From positions 1 through 23,709 of IMG/VR virus record IMGVR_UViG_3300000956_000118: DNA of 23,709 nt; one strand, given 5' to 3'. Below the pieces are notes generated by a model, which was given only the letters and a program-made list of their open reading frames with translations, was not told where the DNA came from and did not search any database. The stretch is from a virus. Shown piece by piece: positions 1-21,483 of this stretch. Each line of letters starts with the position of its first letter. Positions within the stretch are counted from its first letter, which is position 1. The position numbers and the translations under genes are program-made.

Positions 1-3000
1 CGGGCTTGCGTAGAATGGCGGCGAATAGACGATTGGCAGACCGCCGATTGGAACCGATACGTCGTTCCCACTCTCTATTCGGTCCGGCATATCGATCGCG
101 ACCTCAAGGGTCGAGATGTCGATCCAGTTCGTCGCCAGCAGTACTTCTCCGCGAAGCTGGAAGTCGAACAAGCGAGCGCGATAGTCACCGACAACAAACG
201 GCTTCCACGCCGACCAAACGGCCGGGAACACATCGGAGGTGCGAACCCACAACGACAGCGAAGCGCCAACCGGCGGGTCGCCATCGATACTGATCATCGA
301 ATCGAAATCAGCAATCGTGTCGATGTAGCTGCCGTCGTCGTAGAGCACCGCTTCGACATTCGCCGTCAAGCGGCAGTCGTAGACATAACCGAGGTCGGAA
401 GGCGCAGCAAAGCTGTAGGACATCGATAGGCTTGATCCGCCATATTTATCGACCTCTCCTAGCCACGCATCAAGGTCAGTGATGTCGTCAAACAATCCGA
501 GAGCAGACATTTTCAGTACGCCGGAAGCGCCTGCGGCATTAACCGCAACACCAGAGAATGCTGGAGATTCCGTTACCGTAAGAACGACGTTTTCAGGTAG
601 CGGAACCTGCGCGTCAGACCAGACTTCCGTGATCGGCCCGCCAACACCTGAGGAATCGACTGCGCGTGCCAGGTACTTTCCTGGAAGCAACGACACGACA
701 GCCGACGTAGATCGCCCGGCCGCCTCGGTGAGAGGCAGTGCTGCATCCCAGTTGGTCGAAGTATTCCGCGACTGGCGGATACTGATGCTGCCGCCAAGCT
801 TCACATCCAGTTCAGGCACTGGGTCCCATGCCAGCGTCGCCACGCTGTTGATGACGTCGAGCCTGAGCCCTGACAGAGCGGAAGGCGGTGCAAGTAACGC
901 CTGAGCGGTGTAATTCTGGGTCGATGCCGGGCCGGACAGGCCCAGTACCGACTTCGGCGTAACCCGCACAGACCAATCACCAGCTGAAGCAGAATCAAAA
1001 TCAATGCTCGGGGTAGATATCTCGGCGACATATTCCCAGTTCCCCCCAGGCTTCTTCACCTCTACTTGATACCGCATAGCCCTTGCCGGCTGCGTCCAGC
1101 TCACGGAGAGCCTTGCTGCAGCCACCCCCGTTCCGGTGTCATACAGCGACTCAAGGAAAGCCAGCTGTCCAACGGCGGCAGGTTTCCCAAGATTCACGAT
1201 GCTGGTCGGCGCGTCGATATCTGGGGTCCCAAAATCGACCTGATTGAACTTGTCAGGGTCGTACGCCAGTGCATTGATGACATAGGTCCCGTCACCGCCC
1301 TCAGTGATACCGATCACGCGAAATTTCTGCGTGCTCAGAGCCGCACTGGCGAACGCCCAAGGCGCTGATGCCAATGGAGCAGACGGCAATGCCGGAGAGA
1401 CTCCAACAGAGGTTGCGCCGGTCGAAACGGTGACGTTTCGGCTGGCGTAGCTGCCGTCAGCCAGAATCACGCTGATGACGCCAGTCCCACCCAAACCGAC
1501 AGGCGCATCAAGCAAAAGATTCGACGTGGTGCTGCCAGTGAGCAAGCGGCCGCCATTTCTGGCGCCGGCCCGGTTTGCATCGGCAATATCAATGATGTCG
1601 CCAGGCATTGGGATTGCGCCGTCAGCACCGACGGCAAACGTCACCGCCTCGCTTTCTGCATACAACAGCCATCTGCCAAGTCGGCGGGCCTGGCCGCGCG
1701 ATGTGCAGCCTACAGCCACGACATCGCTCTGCTGGATTCTTCCCCACTTGGCGATCAGTTCAGGACGCTCGACGATCTCGACCGTCTGCTTGTACTGCTG
1801 GAACGGGTTGTTCCAGGTAACGGCGGCAACGTTGTAACGCTGGTCGGAGGCAACGGACTGGTAGCTAAAATCACCGCCGACAATGTTCGAGTTGTTGAAC
1901 AGATAGCGACTGGAGCGCGGTGCATCCTGTACCGCCGTGAGCGTGCCGCCAGCCCAGAAACAGATCGCACGGAACACGGACACCATGTCGTTAACCAGCT
2001 TCCACGCGTCCTGCTGCGAGGTCAGCGCCAGATTGCAGGTAAAGCGTGGCTCAACGCCGCCATTGCCGTATCCATTCGGGACGAGTGCGTCGCAGTACTG
2101 CGCGATGCTGTACAGCGCGTATTTGTCGACCAGCGTCGAATCCAGCAGGCCGCCCAACCCATAGCGGGTATTGGTCAGCATGTCGTACCAGACCCAGGCT
2201 GGGTTATTGGTCCAGGCACGCTTGAATGCTCCATTCCACGAACCGGAGTAAACCCTTGTGGCGGGGTCATAATTGACCGGGACCAGGACCTTGATCCCTT
2301 GAACCATGAACGCCATGCGCGGGATGCTGGAAAACTGCTGCGCATCGATCGACAGGCCGACCAGCGCCGTGTTGGGATAGCGAAGTCTTTCATCCCACAG
2401 CAAGGTCATGCTGTCGAAAAAAGTACGGTTCTGGATGGCCGCGCTGGTGGAGTCGACAGAGAGCCGGGTGACCCTCACATAGCGCGGAAGCCCGCCCGAT
2501 ACAGGCAGGCGCAAGTAATACGAGAACTGCGTGCGGCTCATGGTCTTGCCATCAATCGCCAGATCTCCGCAAAGCAAAGACCAGGCGCCGCTGCCGACCT
2601 TGCCCTCAATGCGAAAGACTGCCCGAGACCCCTTGGTGTCGCCGGTTTTCATGTTCTGTTCAGAGAGCTGCGGAGTACTGATGGTCACCCGGACCGCATC
2701 CACGTCGGTGTCAGTGATGGCGCGTTCGGTCGCCACGGCATATTTAAGCTCGACGCCTACCGTCTGCTCGGCTTCAAGGCCGGTGATCGGCATGTAGCTC
2801 TGCCACTGCGTACCGTTCCGGGTATCGACCTGTACATCGGAGAAGTTGAAGCTGCCATCAGGGTTCTGAAGCGGCACATCATCGAAAAATATCCCCATCG
2901 CGCCGTAAGGAATGCCCTGGATCTCCCCCTCGCTGATTGCGTGAAGAATTCGCACATGCTGGCGTGAACGCAGGCTATCTGGCGCTTCAACCGCAGCGCG

Positions 3001-3063
3001 AGTCGTTCCACTGCTGCCGCCCCCCTTGCCCCCACCCTTTCTACCGATAATTAGCTCGCTCAT
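1..3063 (-). CDS. Tail tip host-specificity protein J, C-terminus cut off (1021+ aa)
   Basis: The frame opens with ATG at 3061-3063, overlapping the I stop, and stays open to the left edge, giving 1021 codons. The product starts MSELIIGRKGGGKGGG, then DSLRSRQHVRILHAISEGE at about 28-46, matching the lambda J start (DAISEGPIEG). The stretch VIGITEGGDGTYVINALAYD at about 580-600 matches the conserved J region before the fibronectin type III repeats. Two such repeats follow at about 622-715 and 718-810. The last part is the receptor-facing region. J forms the tail tip hub and binds the host receptor; lambda J has 1132 residues, so a modest C-terminal piece is missing here. The cut is due to the window, not a mutation. 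Confidence 0.92.
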   Translation of the reverse strand, partial: MSELIIGRKGGGKGGGSSGTTRAAVEAPDSLRSRQHVRILHAISEGEIQGIPYGAMGIFFDDVPLQNPDGSFNFSDVQVDTRNGTQWQSYMPITGLEAEQTVGVELKYAVATERAITDTDVDAVRVTISTPQLSEQNMKTGDTKGSRAVFRIEGKVGSGAWSLLCGDLAIDGKTMSRTQFSYYLRLPVSGGLPRYVRVTRLSVDSTSAAIQNRTFFDSMTLLWDERLRYPNTALVGLSIDAQQFSSIPRMAFMVQGIKVLVPVNYDPATRVYSGSWNGAFKRAWTNNPAWVWYDMLTNTRYGLGGLLDSTLVDKYALYSIAQYCDALVPNGYGNGGVEPRFTCNLALTSQQDAWKLVNDMVSVFRAICFWAGGTLTAVQDAPRSSRYLFNNSNIVGGDFSYQSVASDQRYNVAAVTWNNPFQQYKQTVEIVERPELIAKWGRIQQSDVVAVGCTSRGQARRLGRWLLYAESEAVTFAVGADGAIPMPGDIIDIADANRAGARNGGRLLTGSTTSNLLLDAPVGLGGTGVISVILADGSYASRNVTVSTGATSVGVSPALPSAPLASAPWAFASAALSTQKFRVIGITEGGDGTYVINALAYDPDKFNQVDFGTPDIDAPTSIVNLGKPAAVGQLAFLESLYDTGTGVAAARLSVSWTQPARAMRYQVEVKKPGGNWEYVAEISTPSIDFDSASAGDWSVRVTPKSVLGLSGPASTQNYTAQALLAPPSALSGLRLDVINSVATLAWDPVPELDVKLGGSISIRQSRNTSTNWDAALPLTEAAGRSTSAVVSLLPGKYLARAVDSSGVGGPITEVWSDAQVPLPENVVLTVTESPAFSGVAVNAAGASGVLKMSALGLFDDITDLDAWLGEVDKYGGSSLSMSYSFAAPSDLGYVYDCRLTANVEAVLYDDGSYIDTIADFDSMISIDGDPPVGASLSLWVRTSDVFPAVWSAWKPFVVGDYRARLFDFQLRGEVLLATNWIDISTLEVAIDMPDRIESGNDVSVPIGGLPIVYSPPFYASP

Positions 3064-3677
3064 ACCGGTAAAGCCTCCGACCAGGTGCCGATTGCAACAA
3101 CGCTCGAACCCACCAGCATCTGCCCATACACGATGGGAACTGGAAGGCCTTGCTGGGTTGAGTTGAAGGCGCCGTTGAACAGGTAGCTGGGCTTGTTCTC
3201 GGTAACAGCCTGGTCCTGCTGGCTGGCTGCTTTCGGGGTTGGCGAGAGCATTTGAATGACGCCGCCGATAGTCAAGGCGATACCCATCTGAATCATTGGC
3301 GCACCTATCCAAGCCTGACCGAAAGCTGAGGCCACCACGCCAACAACGACCAACACAACACCCAGAACGGTTTGGAAAAGACCACCATTCTTGCTCCCAG
3401 CAATAATCGGGACAATTCGGATCTCGGTTGTTCCGCTGATAGTCAGATGATCGACCCCGACGTTTTCCCGGTTGCGGAATATCGCGTACCTCATACCGAG
3501 GCGAGCCTGATCTCGGATAAAATCTTCAAATCCATCAACGGTGTGTTTCAGGGCGCTGAAGGCTTCTTGGGTCGTGCCGGTTTCGAGCAGGTAAGTCTTC
3601 TGCCGCCAAAACTTTTGAGCGAGGCTTCCAGAAAGCTTGATAGTTGCCATGGACTGACGGCCGACTACATCGCTCAT
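3060..3677 (-). CDS. Tail tip assembly protein I (205 aa)
   Basis: This is a lambda gpI-like protein needed to assemble the tail tip; gpI itself is not thought to remain in the virion. The N-terminal part begins MSDVVGRQSMATIKLSGSLAQ and carries ubiquitin-like strands, as in the family (KLSGSLAQKFWRQ, VDHLTISGTTEIRIVP). A hydrophobic Gly-rich centre at about 97-143 (LGVVLVVVGVVASAF, then GIALTIGGVIQMLSPTPKA) is typical. The end (SYLFNGAFNSTQQGLPVPIVYGQMLVGS, here in two parts) is highly conserved in the family. GGAGAAAAGT lies before the ATG at 3677; a second Met at residue 10 is less likely. It overlaps J by four bases (ATGA). Confidence 0.92.
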   Translation of the reverse strand: MSDVVGRQSMATIKLSGSLAQKFWRQKTYLLETGTTQEAFSALKHTVDGFEDFIRDQARLGMRYAIFRNRENVGVDHLTISGTTEIRIVPIIAGSKNGGLFQTVLGVVLVVVGVVASAFGQAWIGAPMIQMGIALTIGGVIQMLSPTPKAASQQDQAVTENKPSYLFNGAFNSTQQGLPVPIVYGQMLVGSSVVAIGTWSEALPV

Positions 3678-10203: not shown

Positions 10204-10626
10204 TTAGGTGGTGGTGTCGGCCCGGTACTGGATCGACAGCGGCAGCGTGGTGGTCGTATCGCCCTGCTGGGCTGAAGCGGTGGACATCGGCGCGCGGACG
10301 TAGACGGTGAAGGTCGTCTTCGTCAGGGCCAAGTTGTTCGGGAACAATGCGTAAATCTCATCGGCGATCGCCTCGGCAGTGCCGCGACCGATGCCGGCCT
10401 TGGTCACGACACTGACCTGAAACACGCCGCGATAGGCCGTGTGTTTGCCTTCGAGGTCTTCGCTGGTTGTGTTGGCCGGCAGCAGGAAGGCTCGCAGGTA
10501 GGACGATCCGTCCGCCGGCGGTGTAAAGGCGACGTCCTCATAGGCAATCGGCAGTGCCGGAACCCTGGCGGTCGCCCACGTCTTCAGGCGGCCTTCAAAC
10601 AGGCTGCGGATGATTTTGTCTGACAT
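10204..10626 (-). CDS. Tail terminator protein, DUF4128 / lambda U-like (140 aa)
   Basis: Tail terminators form a ring that stops tube growth at the right length and binds the head connector. The 140-residue length is close to lambda gpU (131). The sequence shows an N-terminal helix (IIRSLFEGRLKTWATARV), a loop with VAFTPPADGSSYLRAFLLP, strands (YRGVFQVSVVTK) and a helix (GTAEAIADEIYALFP), as in the DUF4128 group. It sits between the gp10-like and tube genes, as in lambda Z-U-V. A small terminator hairpin follows before the tube gene. Confidence 0.83.
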   Translation of the reverse strand: MSDKIIRSLFEGRLKTWATARVPALPIAYEDVAFTPPADGSSYLRAFLLPANTTSEDLEGKHTAYRGVFQVSVVTKAGIGRGTAEAIADEIYALFPNNLALTKTTFTVYVRAPMSTASAQQGDTTTTLPLSIQYRADTTT

Positions 10627-11195
10627 CAGGGGAGCTCCGAGACGGCTTTATCGATGAACATCTGTACTTCGAGGACCGAGATGCGAACCATGCCGGCGGG
10701 TGCTTGGCTTGAATGCCCGTACTCCAGCGGCTGCGCATACGGGAGGTTATTCATCATCCAGATGGTGCCGACCTGAGTCGTGAAGCCTTGGATGACGCCT
10801 ACGCCCTCGCCGATGGACTCGCGTCCGGTCGGATCGATGCGCTCCAGCGTGCCAGTCTTGGCCGTGTTGAAGCTGACCTGCCAGTTACCCCTGAAGCGCC
10901 CGCCGACGTAGTCACCACCAGCGACCAGATCCATGCCATCCTTGATCAGGCGCCCGGGCTTCATCCGTCCATTCTTGGTCAGGTTGGCCGGATCGCTGCG
11001 CAACTCGGCGTTAAGCCGGGACACTTCGTTGTTGTACTGGGTGGCGGTCGCATTGGCCGCCCAGAGCTCCGGGTTGCCGACTGGGGATCGATCCACTACG
11101 GCGCCAAGCAGGTCGATGGCGACCTTCTTGATCACCGTCTCGGCATTGGCATTGGCCTTCTCGGCGAATGCCTTTAGATCAAGGGAGAAACTCAT
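10626..11195 (-). CDS. HK97 gp10-like / lambda Z-like tail completion protein (189 aa)
   Basis: The protein starts MSFSLDLKAFAEKANANAETVIKKVA, an N-terminal helix typical of the HK97 gp10 family. It carries RSPVGNPELW near 37-46, GGRFRGNWQVSFN near 97-109 and, near 152, the NLPYAQPLEYGHSSQAP signature (family pattern: N-x-x-Y-A-x-x-x-E-x-G). Such proteins complete the tail top or link head and tail. Length matches lambda gpZ (192). GGAG lies before the start, and the stop shares one base with the next start (TGATG). The call is firm as a family. Confidence 0.87.
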   Translation of the reverse strand: MSFSLDLKAFAEKANANAETVIKKVAIDLLGAVVDRSPVGNPELWAANATATQYNNEVSRLNAELRSDPANLTKNGRMKPGRLIKDGMDLVAGGDYVGGRFRGNWQVSFNTAKTGTLERIDPTGRESIGEGVGVIQGFTTQVGTIWMMNNLPYAQPLEYGHSSQAPAGMVRISVLEVQMFIDKAVSELP

Positions 11196-11210: not shown

Positions 11211-11420
11211 TCACACGGTATGCGAAATCTCGGTGCCAACCGAACATGCTGGCCAGTCATCGTTTTCACAGTCGATCCACTGCCAAGCATCGTTGCCCAT
11301 GTAGCGGGCGGGCTGCCACTTATTCACCCATTCCTCTTCGGCATCGCAGTCCCGGTTTGGGAGAGCCCAATAGAAACGACCCGGGATCAGTTCTCTGTCT
11401 GGCCAATCATTCGCGGTCAT
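11211..11420 (-). CDS. Trp-rich small acidic protein (69 aa)
   Basis: This 69-residue product contains seven Trp, at positions 6, 18, 31, 35, 46, 48 and 56, and is acidic. Its core is PGRFYWALPNRD, then EEEWVNKWQPARY and AWQWIDCENDDW. Similar short Trp-rich phage proteins often sit after fibre genes. They have no settled function, though a small beta-barrel or WWE-like fold is plausible. GAGGT lies before the start, 15 bases after the SGNH stop, so it appears to belong to the same inserted unit. It could be a chaperone or cap for the fibre proteins; that is a guess from adjacency. Confidence 0.65.
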   Translation of the reverse strand: MTANDWPDRELIPGRFYWALPNRDCDAEEEWVNKWQPARYMGNDAWQWIDCENDDWPACSVGTEISHTV

Positions 11421-11435
11421 TGGGCTACCTCGTTG

Positions 11436-12656
11436 TTACACATACACACTCGTATCAATGCAGCCAGAATCTGCAACTGCCACGTTCGCTATTTCGTTAA
11501 GGTGCGTGCCCTCCACGGTCCATTGCACTTCAGCGCCGACTGCGCCAGACCATTTCCAGCGTAATTGGTCCGTCGGCATTTGTGTGACCAAGGCGACATC
11601 GAAGAAGGCAATCAATGGAGCTGGTTTTGTGCGAATCCAAGTGTTGACTGCAAGCCTTGGCTGACTGGAAGTTACTTGTTGCTGATGAACCTGATCAATC
11701 CATGTGCCGTTGGTGGACGATGTCTGCACGGTCAGTGTGCTTTGGGTGACTCCTTTGCTTGGGAACTTCGCATATAGCTCCAGCAGATCCGACTCCAATT
11801 GCGCAGCGGTTCTGCCTTGGGACAGGTCATTAATACCGTATTGGCTGTGGATATGCGTGTGATACGAAGTAATACGGACGCGCTTGGTAAGTCGGGTGAG
11901 GAAATTATATAACGCGTCACCTGGAGTCGCGATAAGCGTATACGGCAGCGCTCGCCCAATCGAACGGGCAATCTCTCCCATGTCATACAGGTTGATGTTG
12001 TTGGTTGCGTCATCGCCTTGGCCAGATGCCCGGCTGTCACCAAGAATGCCGATACTCTCAACATTAGACATACCGAGAATCGCTAATGGGTAATACGCCG
12101 ACCGTGTGAAAGGTGGCGAGTTGACGCCACCTCCAGTCATGGTGCGGTCCACGCCACCAGAGGCTACCGCTTCGCAGTACTCACCTGCACGCCCGCCAGT
12201 CACTGTTACCCCAGCTGGTGATACATAGATTCCAGCGGTGTTTACCACGTAGGAGTTAATCCAATACCCAGCGTTATCAGGTATAGCGTGAAAGCATTTA
12301 TCACTAACAATCTCTAGGCCGTTGAGAATTGTTCCTTGGGCCACGCCAGAGAATTTAACTTGGGTAAACACCCCCGCCGGATACTCGACAGATGCTGTGA
12401 TCGTCATCGTAGTGCCGAATGAGTTCTCTGACGTCTGACTCGCATACCAATTGCCAAACACAAGTTGTACAAACGCGAGCGAACCCCCTCGGTTAACGTG
12501 ATACGTTCGGGAATTCATCTGCGTGAACGACACGCTGTTCTGGTTGCACGTACGGCAGCGTGTTGCAGTATTTCTTAATGTCTTCGGCTTGAATGTGGCT
12601 GCAATGGCCGCATTCAACTGACTTTTACTAACGCCTGGAACGTCAAGAATACCCAT
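11436..12656 (-). CDS. SGNH/GDSL-type hydrolase, virion-associated candidate (406 aa)
   Basis: SGNH hydrolases cleave esters, often acetyl groups on polysaccharides. The family blocks are visible: GDS at 206-208 (Ser208 nucleophile), Gly246 in TPGDAL, GIND at 274-277 (Asn276) and EGTHLN at 382-387 with His385. The usual Asp three residues before the His is Glu382 here. The first 25 residues (MGILDVPGVSKSQLNAAIAATF) look like the N-terminal joining segment of phage fibre proteins. Residues 30-190 form a beta-rich region with no known match to me. It has no signal peptide. GC is lower than its neighbours. Position among connector genes and the fibre-like start suggest a capsule or LPS O-acetyl esterase mounted on the virion; substrate is unknown. 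Confidence 0.75.
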   Translation of the reverse strand: MGILDVPGVSKSQLNAAIAATFKPKTLRNTATRCRTCNQNSVSFTQMNSRTYHVNRGGSLAFVQLVFGNWYASQTSENSFGTTMTITASVEYPAGVFTQVKFSGVAQGTILNGLEIVSDKCFHAIPDNAGYWINSYVVNTAGIYVSPAGVTVTGGRAGEYCEAVASGGVDRTMTGGGVNSPPFTRSAYYPLAILGMSNVESIGILGDSRASGQGDDATNNINLYDMGEIARSIGRALPYTLIATPGDALYNFLTRLTKRVRITSYHTHIHSQYGINDLSQGRTAAQLESDLLELYAKFPSKGVTQSTLTVQTSSTNGTWIDQVHQQQVTSSQPRLAVNTWIRTKPAPLIAFFDVALVTQMPTDQLRWKWSGAVGAEVQWTVEGTHLNEIANVAVADSGCIDTSVYV

Positions 12657-12664
12657 GGTTCACC

Positions 12665-13096
12665 CTATACGATTATGAGATCTGGCTGAGCCGTTACGGC
12701 TCCGTTTGCATTTCGGGTAAACGCCGGCTGGGTGATAGTTCTCACTGGATTCCCGAGGTAGGTCGCATGCCAAGCGTCAATAGCACCAGGAAAAGCGACG
12801 CTTACAGCATCAGTGGTCCAGATTCCAAGGGTTCCGTCTGGCCATTTAATATGAGCCGTCAGTAAGGTGCCGTTACTGTCTTCACTGTCCCTACTGACTA
12901 GCGTGAAGTTCTGAACCAAAGCCCAGGCCGATAAATTGGAAGCCGCGGCTGTTCCAACGAATGCAGCTGCGGCATTCGCCTGCGTTGCGAAGTCGGGCAG
13001 CGCTGCGACAAATGCATCCATCTTCGACGTGAAGTCTGCCGGGGCTTCTGCTCGGGCAGGCGGAGCTGGGAGAGGTGCGATCGTTGGAGCACTCAT
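12665..13096 (-). CDS. Fibre-base-like protein (143 aa)
   Basis: The N-terminus MSAPTIAPLPAPPARAEAP with the following DFTSKMDAFVAALPDFATQAN resembles the attachment segment found at the start of many phage fibre and collar proteins. The C-terminal part (HIKWPDGTLGIWTTDAV and later ITQPAFTRNANGAV) resembles repeats seen in phage fibres near the receptor-facing or joining domain. So the gene looks like a short stand-alone fibre adaptor. It sits in an odd place, between head closure and tail terminator genes rather than after J, and is followed 8 bases later by the SGNH hydrolase. I infer that the two proteins decorate the head, neck or tail together. Confidence 0.65.
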   Translation of the reverse strand: MSAPTIAPLPAPPARAEAPADFTSKMDAFVAALPDFATQANAAAAFVGTAAASNLSAWALVQNFTLVSRDSEDSNGTLLTAHIKWPDGTLGIWTTDAVSVAFPGAIDAWHATYLGNPVRTITQPAFTRNANGAVTAQPDLIIV

Positions 13097-13500
13097 CAGC
13101 GCCTCCCTTGAATTTCGTAGATGATTGGAACGCCAGCCGGGCTTACTTCCTTGACGTTCATCACGGTCAGCGTCGAGTAAGGCTTAGTGAAGTAGTCGTA
13201 GATGTTGGGTGCATCTATCTCGTAGATGACCTTGCTCGAAAGCTGAGGCGCAGGACCAAGGCCTTGAGCGGCAACCTTGATCTTCTTGTCGCCCTGCTTG
13301 ATCAGGCTGTTGTTCTGGAACTCCTGCCCCGTGAAGTCGCTCACGATGCAGCTGGCGACCTGTTCGGTGGCGGTGCCGGGCGTTGTAGAGCCAGTATCAG
13401 GGTCGTATCCGTCGTCAGCCGTGGTGCGAATCACCGCGGGCTGGCCGAACTCCTCGATCATCTCCAGAGCCATGTCCGCCATTTCGTTGTAAAAGCCCAT
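13096..13500 (-). CDS. Head closure / head-tail joining protein (134 aa)
   Basis: This 134-residue protein fits the size and position of head closure proteins (lambda FII or SPP1 gp16-type), which seal the filled head and offer the tail-binding surface. It has an N-terminal helix (MGFYNEMADMALEMIEEFG), an acidic loop (TADDGYDPDTGSTTPGTA) and several beta strands ending with a typical VPIIYEIQGRR. Stops and starts overlap by one base on both sides (TGATG), so expression is coupled to the connector and to the following fibre-base-like gene. No catalytic motif is seen. It could instead be a second adaptor. Role is from context and general fold pattern. Confidence 0.72.
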   Translation of the reverse strand: MGFYNEMADMALEMIEEFGQPAVIRTTADDGYDPDTGSTTPGTATEQVASCIVSDFTGQEFQNNSLIKQGDKKIKVAAQGLGPAPQLSSKVIYEIDAPNIYDYFTKPYSTLTVMNVKEVSPAGVPIIYEIQGRR

Positions 13501-13997
13501 CAGGACCTCCGCAGACTTACCTGGTTGGACGACTCAAGGAATCCAGTGAGCTGAGCATATGACTGGCGCACAGCGGCGGCTTTGGTGATGCTGGGGGCGG
13601 CAGTTGCATATTGGCGCTCGACCGCACCCTCAACCCGCTCCCTGATGACTGCGCCTTTCTTCAGTTCAGGCTGTACCAGATCGTCAGCGTGAATCTCGGC
13701 AGCCAAAGCCATCTGGGCCGCCTTGATCTGCACAGGGATGGAATCGGACGGCAACGTCCAGCCATTACGGCAGACGTCGTATCGAGGCCATGCCAGCGCC
13801 TGATCACGATTCACCGCCTGCCCCTTCCAAGGCTTCGCGCTCATCTCAAGCGCGGCCCGGCGCAACAGCGCCTCCTGCGAAGGTGTATCAGCCGGAATCA
13901 CCCGACCAAAATTCGCGGCGTATGCGACCAGTTCCGCAGCCGTGGCAAAACTCTCGGCACCTGGAACGATCAAGCCTGTTTCGATGACGAGAGCCAT
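13500..13997 (-). CDS. DnaT-like / head-tail connector protein (165 aa)
   Basis: This 165-residue helical protein occupies the place of the first connector (adaptor) that binds under the portal. It has an N-terminal stretch common in this family (GAESFATAAELVAYAANFG), a PSQEALLRRAALEMSAKPWKGQ helix pair at about 39-60, an aromatic turn (LAWPRYDVCRNGW at about 68-80) and a long helix (PVQIKAAQMALAAEIHADD). Database relatives are often named 'DnaT-like ssDNA-binding', but the position between coat and head closure genes argues for an adaptor like HK97 gp6 or P22 gp4-type function. It shares one base (TGATG) with the next gene. The family is recognised by pattern; the function is inferred from order. 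Confidence 0.75.
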   Translation of the reverse strand: MALVIETGLIVPGAESFATAAELVAYAANFGRVIPADTPSQEALLRRAALEMSAKPWKGQAVNRDQALAWPRYDVCRNGWTLPSDSIPVQIKAAQMALAAEIHADDLVQPELKKGAVIRERVEGAVERQYATAAPSITKAAAVRQSYAQLTGFLESSNQVSLRRS

Positions 13998-14202: not shown

Positions 14203-15375
14203 TTAGCCCAGCAGGATGCCCGAGTGACGAGGAGCGATCATTTTCACGCCCCAGGCCAGGTTGATCTCGTAGCGCACTTGACGCTTCTGCTTGTAGATGG
14301 CGAACTCGTAGGTCAGGCCCGACACAGGGTCGGTCACCATCATTACGTCGTCCGCAGCATCACCGCCTTCTGGCATCGCAGGAGCGCGGGTTGCCAGCTG
14401 GATGGCCGAGCGGTGGAAGAACATGTTGCGGGCAGCAGCAGCAATCACGGTGATCGCCTTGGCAGCAGCGCTCATTGCAACGCGCAGACCTGGCTCGGCG
14501 ATGGTGATGGTGCCGCCGTTGGAGGTGTCGGTATCACCCGAAACAACCACGTACTTGTTGGTGTCACCCGCGAAGGTGACGATATCGCCCGCGAGGATGG
14601 TGCCAGTGCCGGCAGAAGCCAGAGTGATGACGGTCGCGCCGACAGCGTAACCAGCAGCGTTGGTGGTGGCAGAAGCGCCAGTGCCCACGACGACACCCTC
14701 TTTCACCTGCGCCGAGTTGTGCAGCAGCAGGCCCTGGTACTCGCCAAGCGCGCCCTGACGCAACAGCGCTTCGGCTTGCGGGCCGCCGGTGTTGGTTTGG
14801 AACAGGGTCGACATTTTGCCGCGGATGTTCGCAACAGCCGCGCCACCGAGGACCAGGTGCATGTCGCTCTGCGGAGCACCGTTGTCGTCCAGGATCTTGC
14901 GGGCCTGAGCGAAGTCGCTCATGTCGCCAGAAGTGCCGAACGGAGTGGTGCCCGCAGTGCCATAGGCGCGCGAGGTGTTGATGTGCAGAGCAGCGAGGTC
15001 GGTTTCGACTTCGTTGGTCAGGGTGCGCATGGCCTGGGCGATACGCTGGACGTTGATGCTGCCCAGAGTGCCGGCATTGCTGAGGCCCAGAGTTTCCTCA
15101 CCAGTGATGCCGAACGGCACCGAACGCGCCTTGCTGATGGTCATCTGCACGTTGCCGATGGTCTGGTTCGGGGTGTCAGCAGCGTAAGCCGCAGGAACCA
15201 GGTCTTCAGCAGCCATCGCGCCAACCACTGGCGATACAACGGCCTGGCCGACAGCTGCACGCTCTGCAGTCGAGTCGCGGGATACGGCCGGAATGAAACC
15301 GACCAGCTCGCGGGATACAACGTCCATCGCTTCCTGAATGGAAGGGATCAGACTGGTAAGGGTCAAAGTGCCCAT
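14203..15375 (-). CDS. Major capsid protein, P22 coat-like (390 aa)
   Basis: This HK97-fold coat protein has features of the P22 coat family. The N-terminal region (SLIPSIQEAMDVVSRELVG) and the long middle helix region (INVQRIAQAMRTLTNEVETD at about 107-126) are typical. Residues about 229-297 form a beta-rich inserted domain (GATVITLAS, LAGDIVTFAG, GGTITIAEPGL) in the place of the P22 insertion domain, which stabilises the capsid. The C-terminus has the usual APRHSGILLG ending. Length is a little shorter than P22 coat (430). It follows the scaffold gene with AGAGGTAG as ribosome site, and a very stable hairpin lies 8 bases after its stop. P22-like coats are processed without a prohead protease, consistent with none being seen. 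Confidence 0.9.
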   Translation of the reverse strand: MGTLTLTSLIPSIQEAMDVVSRELVGFIPAVSRDSTAERAAVGQAVVSPVVGAMAAEDLVPAAYAADTPNQTIGNVQMTISKARSVPFGITGEETLGLSNAGTLGSINVQRIAQAMRTLTNEVETDLAALHINTSRAYGTAGTTPFGTSGDMSDFAQARKILDDNGAPQSDMHLVLGGAAVANIRGKMSTLFQTNTGGPQAEALLRQGALGEYQGLLLHNSAQVKEGVVVGTGASATTNAAGYAVGATVITLASAGTGTILAGDIVTFAGDTNKYVVVSGDTDTSNGGTITIAEPGLRVAMSAAAKAITVIAAAARNMFFHRSAIQLATRAPAMPEGGDAADDVMMVTDPVSGLTYEFAIYKQKRQVRYEINLAWGVKMIAPRHSGILLG

Positions 15376-15388
15376 GCGGTACTACCTC

Positions 15389-16144
15389 TTAATCGACAAT
15401 CTTGATTTTTGCCTGGATCGCCGCTCGTTGATCGAGGGGGCTCAAGGCTTCGTATTGGGTTCGTTTCATGGTCTTGGCCCCGTGGTTCGCATTGCTCTGT
15501 TGCGAGCCGCCGCCATTGGCGTTGGCTGGGAACCAGTGCGGAGCCTTGTCTTTCATGTCGCTGAACCACTCCTTGAGCGTCAGCGGCTTGCCGTCCTTGC
15601 CGAATGCGTCTTCTACGGCGACAGGGTTGCCCTCGTCGTCGAGCTTGAAGGTCGCACTGGCGCGGAGCAGCGCGTCATCGATTGCGTACTGATGGAGGCC
15701 AGCAGCGGTAGCTTCTGCGCGAATGCCGTTTTCAAGGACTCGGCGACTGAACTTGTCAGCCCGGGTCTCGGCAGCTTCACGCGCGGCACGTTCTTTGGCG
15801 GTTTCCTGTTCGAAGCCTGCCTTCATGCGCGTGGTGCGCTTGTCGAGCACTTCGTCAATTTTCCCGGCAGCGATCAGGCCAGCTTCTTCGTCGTTGGCGA
15901 ACTTCGAGAGGATGTTCCGAACCGCATCAGGGTCGATGCCTTCGAAACGAGCAGCATCCTGCTTGGCCGCCTTGAGCGAGCCCAGCAATTCGCTGTTTTT
16001 GGTCTTGAGGCCGCTTACAGCCGCTTCAACAGCTGCCGCAACCTTGGCGTCGAAGTCTTGGGTGTCGTTTCCGCCACCATTACCACCACCTTCGCCACCA
16101 CCCTCTTCCGCCATCAACGGATACCACTTGCCGAAAATAAACAT
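15389..16144 (-). CDS. Capsid scaffolding protein (251 aa)
   Basis: Scaffolds fill the prohead and guide coat assembly, then leave or are degraded. The protein starts MFIFGKWYPLMAEE, followed by a Gly-rich low-complexity stretch at about 15-26 and a long charged helical region with heptad-like patterns (ETAKERAAREAAETRADKF at about 115-133). A loosely folded Asn/Gly-rich part follows (ANANGGG). It ends with a small basic helical region (LSPLDQRAAIQAKIKIVD), which may bind coat, as the basic C-terminus of P22 scaffold does. It directly precedes the coat gene. The start has AAGGGG 8 bases upstream; a second Met at residue 11 has no such site. No protease domain is visible. Confidence 0.87.
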   Translation of the reverse strand: MFIFGKWYPLMAEEGGGEGGGNGGGNDTQDFDAKVAAAVEAAVSGLKTKNSELLGSLKAAKQDAARFEGIDPDAVRNILSKFANDEEAGLIAAGKIDEVLDKRTTRMKAGFEQETAKERAAREAAETRADKFSRRVLENGIRAEATAAGLHQYAIDDALLRASATFKLDDEGNPVAVEDAFGKDGKPLTLKEWFSDMKDKAPHWFPANANGGGSQQSNANHGAKTMKRTQYEALSPLDQRAAIQAKIKIVD

Positions 16145-16183
16145 CTGCTAACCCCTTGGGTCTGTTGGCCGCCTGGCGGCAAA

Positions 16184-16208
16184 TAAAAAGCCCCGTCATT
16201 GACGAGGC
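16184..16208 (-). terminator. Intrinsic terminator before scaffold (second of a pair)
   Basis: On the minus strand GCCTCGTC pairs with GACGGGGC (8 bp, one G-U) around a 3-base loop, followed by TTTTTATTT. Its stem and tail resemble the terminator at 22895. Together with the one at 16226 it makes a double stop ahead of scaffold and coat genes. Confidence 0.83.
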
Positions 16209-16225
16209 CTGTGTAAATCGCGTGC

Positions 16226-16254
16226 ATAAAAAAGCCCCGGCGGATGCCAGGGCT
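16226..16254 (-). terminator. Intrinsic terminator after the zinc-ribbon gene (first of a pair)
   Basis: On the minus strand AGCCCTGGC pairs with GCCGGGGCT (9 bp, one G-U) around the 4-base loop ATCC, followed by six T. It is one of the strongest terminators in the window. It lies inside the late operon, between minor head and scaffold genes. Confidence 0.87.
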
Positions 16255-16275
16255 GTTTGAATTCGTTTCGTGACG

Positions 16276-16524
16276 CTACAGCGTGACGCGCTCGCCTTTG
16301 AGTAGACACCCGACGCAGAGCAGTACCTTGGTCCCGCCGGTTGGTTTGCCGTTCTTCATCAGGACGCCGATCTTGCTTTCAATGACCTCACGGCCGCCGC
16401 AACGATGACACTGAACCATCGCTTCAGGCTTCGGCATCGCACGCACACGACGACGCACCTGCTCGGCCGGGGTATCCGGTGGAGCGGTGCCGTCGATCAC
16501 GTGGAAGCGCGGTTTGTCGGTCAT
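16276..16524 (-). CDS. Small zinc-ribbon protein (82 aa)
   Basis: This 82-residue protein has two Cys pairs, C39-x-x-C42 (CHRCGG) and C70-x-x-C73 (CVGC), separated by 27 residues, the layout of a zinc ribbon. The residues between them include a basic, Gly-rich turn (MKNGKPTGGTK). The first 35 residues are Pro-rich and probably flexible. It overlaps the minor head protein stop as ATGA, so it is translated with the head genes. Two terminators follow directly. Zinc ribbons often bind nucleic acid or protein; which applies here cannot be told. It could be a head accessory or a small regulator. Confidence 0.75.
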   Translation of the reverse strand: MTDKPRFHVIDGTAPPDTPAEQVRRRVRAMPKPEAMVQCHRCGGREVIESKIGVLMKNGKPTGGTKVLLCVGCLLKGERVTL

Positions 16525-21048: not shown

Positions 21049-21483
21049 CTACTGCTCAACCTTCACGGTGAGCGTTCTGATCTTGCCGCCAGTGCAGCTA
21101 TCGCGCTTCATGGCCATCTCTACGGCTTGATAGGCAGATGCGCCCATGTCCATTGCGGTATAAGCGTGATCGGAGCCACTGCCAATCGCATAAGGTCGAT
21201 CAGGCAGCACCTGGCTCTTTTCAATGCCGTCTTCGTCATCGTGGCTGATGTACCAAACCTCACCCTCGACCACTACCAGCGCACTCATCTGCACGGACGT
21301 CTGAGGCTCGCCGAAATAGGCATCAAGCAGCTTATGCGCGCCTGATAGGCTGCCGCAGACAACGAACTTCACACCATCACGCTCCAGGCACTTCTCGAAG
21401 TCGTCATAGACGATGGTGCCGCTACTGGTGGTTGCTCGACCGTCATAGGCAATGATGCCGTCCTTGTAGGCGATCGTGGTCAT
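21049..21483 (-). CDS. HslV/proteasome-like Ntn-hydrolase (144 aa)
   Basis: The N-terminus MTTIAYKDGIIAYDGRAT matches the start of HslV and proteasome beta subunits. Thr2 would become the N-terminal nucleophile after Met removal, with an Asp at residue 14 and a Lys at residue 31 in the expected order. The later stretch YAIGSGSDHAYTAMDMGAS (about 98-116) corresponds to the HslV IGSGG region, and KRDSCTGG follows. At 144 residues it is shorter than HslV (about 175). HslV forms a peptidase ring fed by the HslU ATPase; no HslU is seen here. Phage relatives are often found near terminases, and their role is not established. It could process phage proteins or only keep the fold. The family call is fairly sure; the activity is not. 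Confidence 0.8.
   Translation of the reverse strand: MTTIAYKDGIIAYDGRATTSSGTIVYDDFEKCLERDGVKFVVCGSLSGAHKLLDAYFGEPQTSVQMSALVVVEGEVWYISHDDEDGIEKSQVLPDRPYAIGSGSDHAYTAMDMGASAYQAVEMAMKRDSCTGGKIRTLTVKVEQ

Follow-up and report, generated by a model that had tools for sequence, protein, structure and literature searches.

The present analysis identified a gene insert that probably encodes a virion appendage cassette, in which a small carrier protein would hold a tagged esterase, in the slot between the head closure gene Hc1 and Neck1 of a 23.7-kb virus record (IMGVR_UViG_3300000956_000118; its full 23,709 nucleotides are referred to here as the window). Carrier and esterase seem built to fit together like plug and socket, and the pair, a C-terminal module on the carrier and a short tag with which the product of the following gene begins, recurs with many different enzymes in unrelated phages. 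SGNH esterases of phages and neck appendages are already known kinds. The portable carrier module with its tag appears to be undescribed as far as the searched libraries show: we found neither a family model nor a paper on such a pair, the sole text match for the tag being a paper on yeast Sup35. In the mechanism we propose, the 143-aa carrier would attach to the particle via its first 47 residues and rise as a helical, probably trimeric, stalk ending in an 80-residue beta module, which would grip the 406-aa SGNH esterase by its N-terminal tag. The enzyme might then strip O-acyl, probably O-acetyl, groups from the host surface polysaccharide and thereby aid the virion in binding to the cell or gaining access to it, with the main receptor binding presumably exerted by a lambda-J-like tail-tip protein.

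The window encodes its late genes on the minus strand, arranged as is usual (terminase, portal, head morphogenesis, scaffold, P22-type coat, Ad1, Hc1, the insert, Neck1, tail terminator, tail tube, tape measure, minor tail genes and tail assembly protein). Absence of the tail-tip gene J from the left end was ruled out by a J-like open frame (Table 1). The host group is probably Pseudomonas, as suggested by the same anchor segment located behind an Hc1 homologue in a Pseudomonas MAG (L149). Besides, the head-tail adaptor Ad1 (13500-13997; PHROG 477) matches PF20557 at 4e-45, a family whose name, 'DnaT-like ssDNA binding protein', looks misleading for this protein, and a 144-aa protein adjoining the terminase genes (21049-21483) matches phrog_1040, 'peptidase HslV family' (7e-41).

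Table 1. Features of the insert, its borders and the left end of the window (positions in the window).
Feature	Position	Strand	Basis or remark
Hc1, head closure, 5' border of the slot	13096-13500	-	PHROG 161, 3e-24; stop overlaps carrier start (TGATG)
Carrier protein, 143 aa	12665-13096	-	AlphaFold2 model
Anchor segment of carrier, aa 1-47	12956-13096	-	common to L002, L003, L004 and L149 in the same slot
C-terminal beta module of carrier, ~80 aa (aa 60-143)	12668-12919	-	
8-nt spacer GGTGAACC, carrier stop to cargo start	12657-12664	-	
N-terminal tag MGILDVPG of the 406-aa cargo	12633-12656	-	
Predicted SGNH esterase (cargo), 406 aa	11436-12656	-	PHROG 8480, conserved catalytic residues, profile match
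Ser208	12033-12035	-	predicted catalytic residue of the 406-aa protein
Asn276	11829-11831	-	predicted catalytic residue of the 406-aa protein
His385	11502-11504	-	predicted catalytic residue of the 406-aa protein
Trp-rich orphan ORF, 69 aa	11211-11420	-	
Neck1 / gp10-like / tail completion protein, 3' border of the slot	10626-11195	-	PHROG 169, 1e-49
J-like open frame	1-3312		runs off the contig

The three open reading frames that the first-pass annotation had placed between head closure and the gp10-like protein are real, lie on the minus strand and fall exactly between Hc1 and Neck1. Their proposed separate origin and the reading as a fibre/esterase cassette are well supported by composition, by an empty site in most relatives, by the varied cassettes in this slot and by the fibre-type anchor on the 143-aa protein. 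A recount reproduced the earlier GC figure for 12301-12480 (89/180) exactly; with 52% GC (0.52) set against 60% (0.60), the insert represents the GC minimum of the contig, and the lowest-GC segment of 1,739 nt begins at 11172, i.e. on the insert. The SGNH gene has 51.4% GC and a GC3 of 0.536 and the carrier gene a GC3 of 0.514, compared with 0.61-0.82 in the flanking structural genes. Among relatives with both neighbours found, Hc1 lies <100 nt from Neck1 in 81 loci, so that the slot is empty, and 24 further related loci have space for Hc1 only. Four relatives carry an insert in this gap, namely fibre or enzyme cassettes (L002, L003, L004) and, at L052:6476-6787, a 103-aa protein that is unrelated and starts with a signal-peptide-like stretch. 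Low GC and sporadic occurrence amid structural genes, together with the unrelated small insert of L052 in the same gap, are also what a moron might show, i.e. an enzyme and its neighbours expressed for the host or lysogen (e.g. for surface alteration) and outside the virion. Yet, the insert shares the strand of the structural genes, the carrier start overlaps the Hc1 stop just as in L002, L003 and L004, the first gene bears a fibre anchor, and anchor-enzyme fusions occupy the same slot, all of which renders a moron very improbable. Fibre or enzyme features had been ascribed to all three genes; this held for the 143-aa and 406-aa products, but nothing links to the appendage the 69-aa Trp-rich ORF, for which PHROG and Pfam searches and the related loci yielded no relative. 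Likewise, of the fibre-like N-termini read into both larger proteins, that of the carrier is indeed a fibre-type anchor, but the 406-aa protein begins with a short conserved tag, which pairs with the C-terminal module of the carrier; the earlier interpretation is thus borne out in part.

Judged by its sequence, the 406-aa protein is a predicted esterase of the SGNH family. It matches PHROG 8480 at 5.5e-40, and Ser208 (GDS block), Asn276 (GxND block) and His385 (last block) are invariant in eight aligned sequences, relatives being 23-34% identical. In the DxxH block, the window protein has Glu382 where its seven relatives have Asp, which makes its activity uncertain. A profile of the eight sequences (A5) matched solved SGNH hydrolases near full length (9kr0, 1.7e-19; 7tog, 1.3e-13), the second of which belongs to work on xylan-deacetylating carbohydrate esterases (PMC9105624). 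The single-sequence Pfam match (PF13472, 0.0033) lay below the curated cut-off, a single-sequence fold was set aside (pLDDT 29.5), and a peptide-pattern search of viral_contigs retrieved no close relatives. A polysaccharide might be the substrate, because SGNH phage fibres have been shown to be esterases (PMC13123978). Of note, one phage with an SGNH homologue (Shewanella phage vB_Sb_QDWS, L121) carries an annotated retron-type reverse transcriptase at 15342-16373.

The AlphaFold2 model of the carrier (76 sequences, pLDDT 89) comprises an N-terminal segment, a 42-residue helix (residues 19-60) and a compact C-terminal beta domain. Fibre-like proteins of other phages, unrelated beyond this segment, share the 47-aa anchor at their N-termini (25 viral loci plus one Pseudomonas MAG), and a scan of genome_contigs with the anchor returned one locus. 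Outside the Hc1 slot, at L141:6001-7404, a further protein showing SGNH-like motifs (GDS and GGND) carries the fibre-type anchor as a fusion. The beta module is present in 79 viral loci, carried on unrelated N-termini. It matched no family in Pfam or NCBIfam, and no PHROG match was significant; solved structures resembling it were not found by sequence, and by fold the best E was 0.3. A search of the viral library returned phage proteins, the best being a minor tail protein of Gordonia phage Phistory.

In the window, module and tag are both present, the one at the carrier C-terminus and the other at the start of the next gene. When the tag was written as the motif M[GS]x(0-2)[ILVF][LM][DE]xP, the gene following a module carrier began with it in 46 of 68 non-redundant cases, against a background of 6/1,871 among the other ORFs of the module loci. 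The next gene was itself a carrier in 8 more cases, and several of the remaining 14 had looser variants (MGFLDPKP, MGLLDPAI, MSILEPSK). Since this motif had been written after viewing the gene list, we ran the reverse test and scanned the whole viral collection with a DNA pattern for M[GS]ILD[AV]PG: the module lay ≤500 nt upstream in 29 of 33 matches, and upstream in 13 of the 16 on contigs outside the first list. The commonest carrier-cargo spacing among tagged pairs was 8 nt, which is also that of the window pair. Behind the tag, 20 of 38 cargo proteins match Lipase_GDSL_2 and four polysaccharide deacetylase, with single matches to FAD oxidoreductase, BNR, GH43, pectate lyase-like and other families; the tagged families also include alpha/beta-hydrolases. 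Given this variety, we rejected the idea that the tag simply starts the proteins of a single enzyme family. The tagged cargo of L181 (5252-7363; also L174) reads as an FAD-dependent oxidoreductase, which is odd for a virion appendage, and one tagged cargo protein matches PF12831 at 3.9e-75.

Docking of module and tag is suggested by this gene pairing, although genes may also be inherited together as a pair on other grounds. The pairing might reflect co-inheritance or a shared DNA recombination joint only, the proteins having no contact: the DNA over the carrier-cargo junction is similar in several Gram-negative phages, and L156 and L157 share 2.1 kb of module and cargo at 89% DNA identity. The carrier N-termini of these two phages differ, which would fit an N-terminus that determines the site of attachment. 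Against pairing without contact, positions L4, D5 and P7 of the tag hardly change between phages whose hosts differ greatly while its third codon positions vary freely, and both cargo and carrier N-termini vary freely as well. We thus regard pairing without contact as rather unlikely and favour docking. If this is true, a short tag would reveal a displayed phage enzyme whatever its fold, its carrier would reveal the site of display, and many unannotated phage enzymes could be found by one motif.

As to where the esterase would sit, mounting on head, neck or tail, as raised in the first-pass annotation, is plausible, and from the gene positions we rate a neck location as somewhat better than even. 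Beside head or connector genes, pairs occur between Hc1 and Neck1 (window and L002), between coat and Ad3 (L154, whose cargo is 34% identical to the window SGNH protein), behind portal in L233 and a short distance ahead of the sheath gene in L155 and L156; L154, L155, L156 and L233 have other gene plans. Many other pairs adjoin genes for lysis, tail fibres or terminase, which means that the pair also occurs away from necks, and the proteins in which the anchor is most familiar are encoded beside tail genes; this counts against the neck. Indeed, the same carrier-enzyme pair might be mounted on the tail tip or tube, with the gene site being no more than a place where the late operon tolerates insertions. 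In other phages, proteins encoded after a tail-type gene often bear this anchor, and the actinophage relatives of module and SGNH protein are annotated as minor tail proteins. Against this, we did not find the gene that normally stands before the anchor in L002, L003 or L156, these records hold a single carrier copy, and other phages repeatedly have the pair next to connector or capsid genes; tail mounting therefore remains a minority prospect. For the full reading, an esterase mounted at the neck of this phage through a portable module-tag pair, we see the chances as evenly balanced. If it holds, the role of neck appendages could be tested by removing the cassette, which is absent from most relatives.

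Among known systems, E. coli phage G7C gp63.1 has been reported as an O-acetyl deacetylase and two Klebsiella prophage fibres as active esterases (PMC13123978). The window resembles these receptor-binding proteins in placing an SGNH enzyme on a putative phage adhesion protein, yet they are tail fibres or spikes, whereas the window gene lies in the connector cluster and encodes an enzyme separate from its carrier. The neck passage structure of lactococcal 936/P335 phages forms neck-mounted, dispensable collar fibres with a coiled coil and carbohydrate-binding ends (PMC6669499). It would share the neck mounting, read from genes alone in the window, but is one long protein with a BppU-like N-terminus and binding modules, and a PHROG search of the window proteins gave no match to its families. 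Passages of two reviews (PMC9863714, PMC10491603) describe phi29 gp12, T4 wac and XM1 gp40 as collar appendages, phi29 gp12 digesting a surface polymer; the window cassette may likewise stand at the neck, but we found no homology, and those passages mention no carrier/tag pair. Among actinophage minor tail cassettes, gp28-gp31 of Arthrobacter phage TripleJ contain the same module, at 43-45% identity in gp28/gp29, and an SGNH homologue (29% identity) that starts with the same tag, MGILDIPG. This cassette differs in lying within the tail gene cluster, in having several carriers in series and another anchor, and in its Gram-positive host. Several module carriers also stand in a row before a tagged enzyme in the Arthrobacter-type phages L189, L194, L195, L197 and L201, as they do in TripleJ (L123:4511-7212), and such serial carriers read as if a fibre were assembled from docked links.

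The slot holds different cassettes in related phages. In L002, a 142-aa carrier (70% identical to that of the window) is followed by a 587-aa protein starting MSILDAPGLSK, which reads from its sequence as a putative beta-helix spike and had no PHROG or Pfam match. L003 and L004 have a single 644-aa chain, with a window-type anchor fused directly to a different GDSL-like hydrolase (weak PF00657 matches at 0.0084 and 0.0018; motifs GDS, GIND and DRVHP visible). Scanning 300 genomes of the Pseudomonas MAG's genus for further neck-slot examples gave few and weak ones. Other related phages place cassettes between coat and Ad1 rather than in the Hc1/Neck1 slot, including GDSL hydrolases in L094 and L103 (PF13472, 3e-11 and 6e-11) and a protein with a GDS motif in L105. 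In L084, L088, L091, L097 and L106, this coat to Ad1 gap of ~2.4-2.6 kb is a second insertion slot with a conserved cassette of 139-, 265- and 325-aa proteins. The first of these matches phrog_644 (unknown function) and the other two had no PHROG match; the 325-aa protein contains many Ala/Ser-rich repeats and has the C-terminal end PLAGQTQTFPLG.
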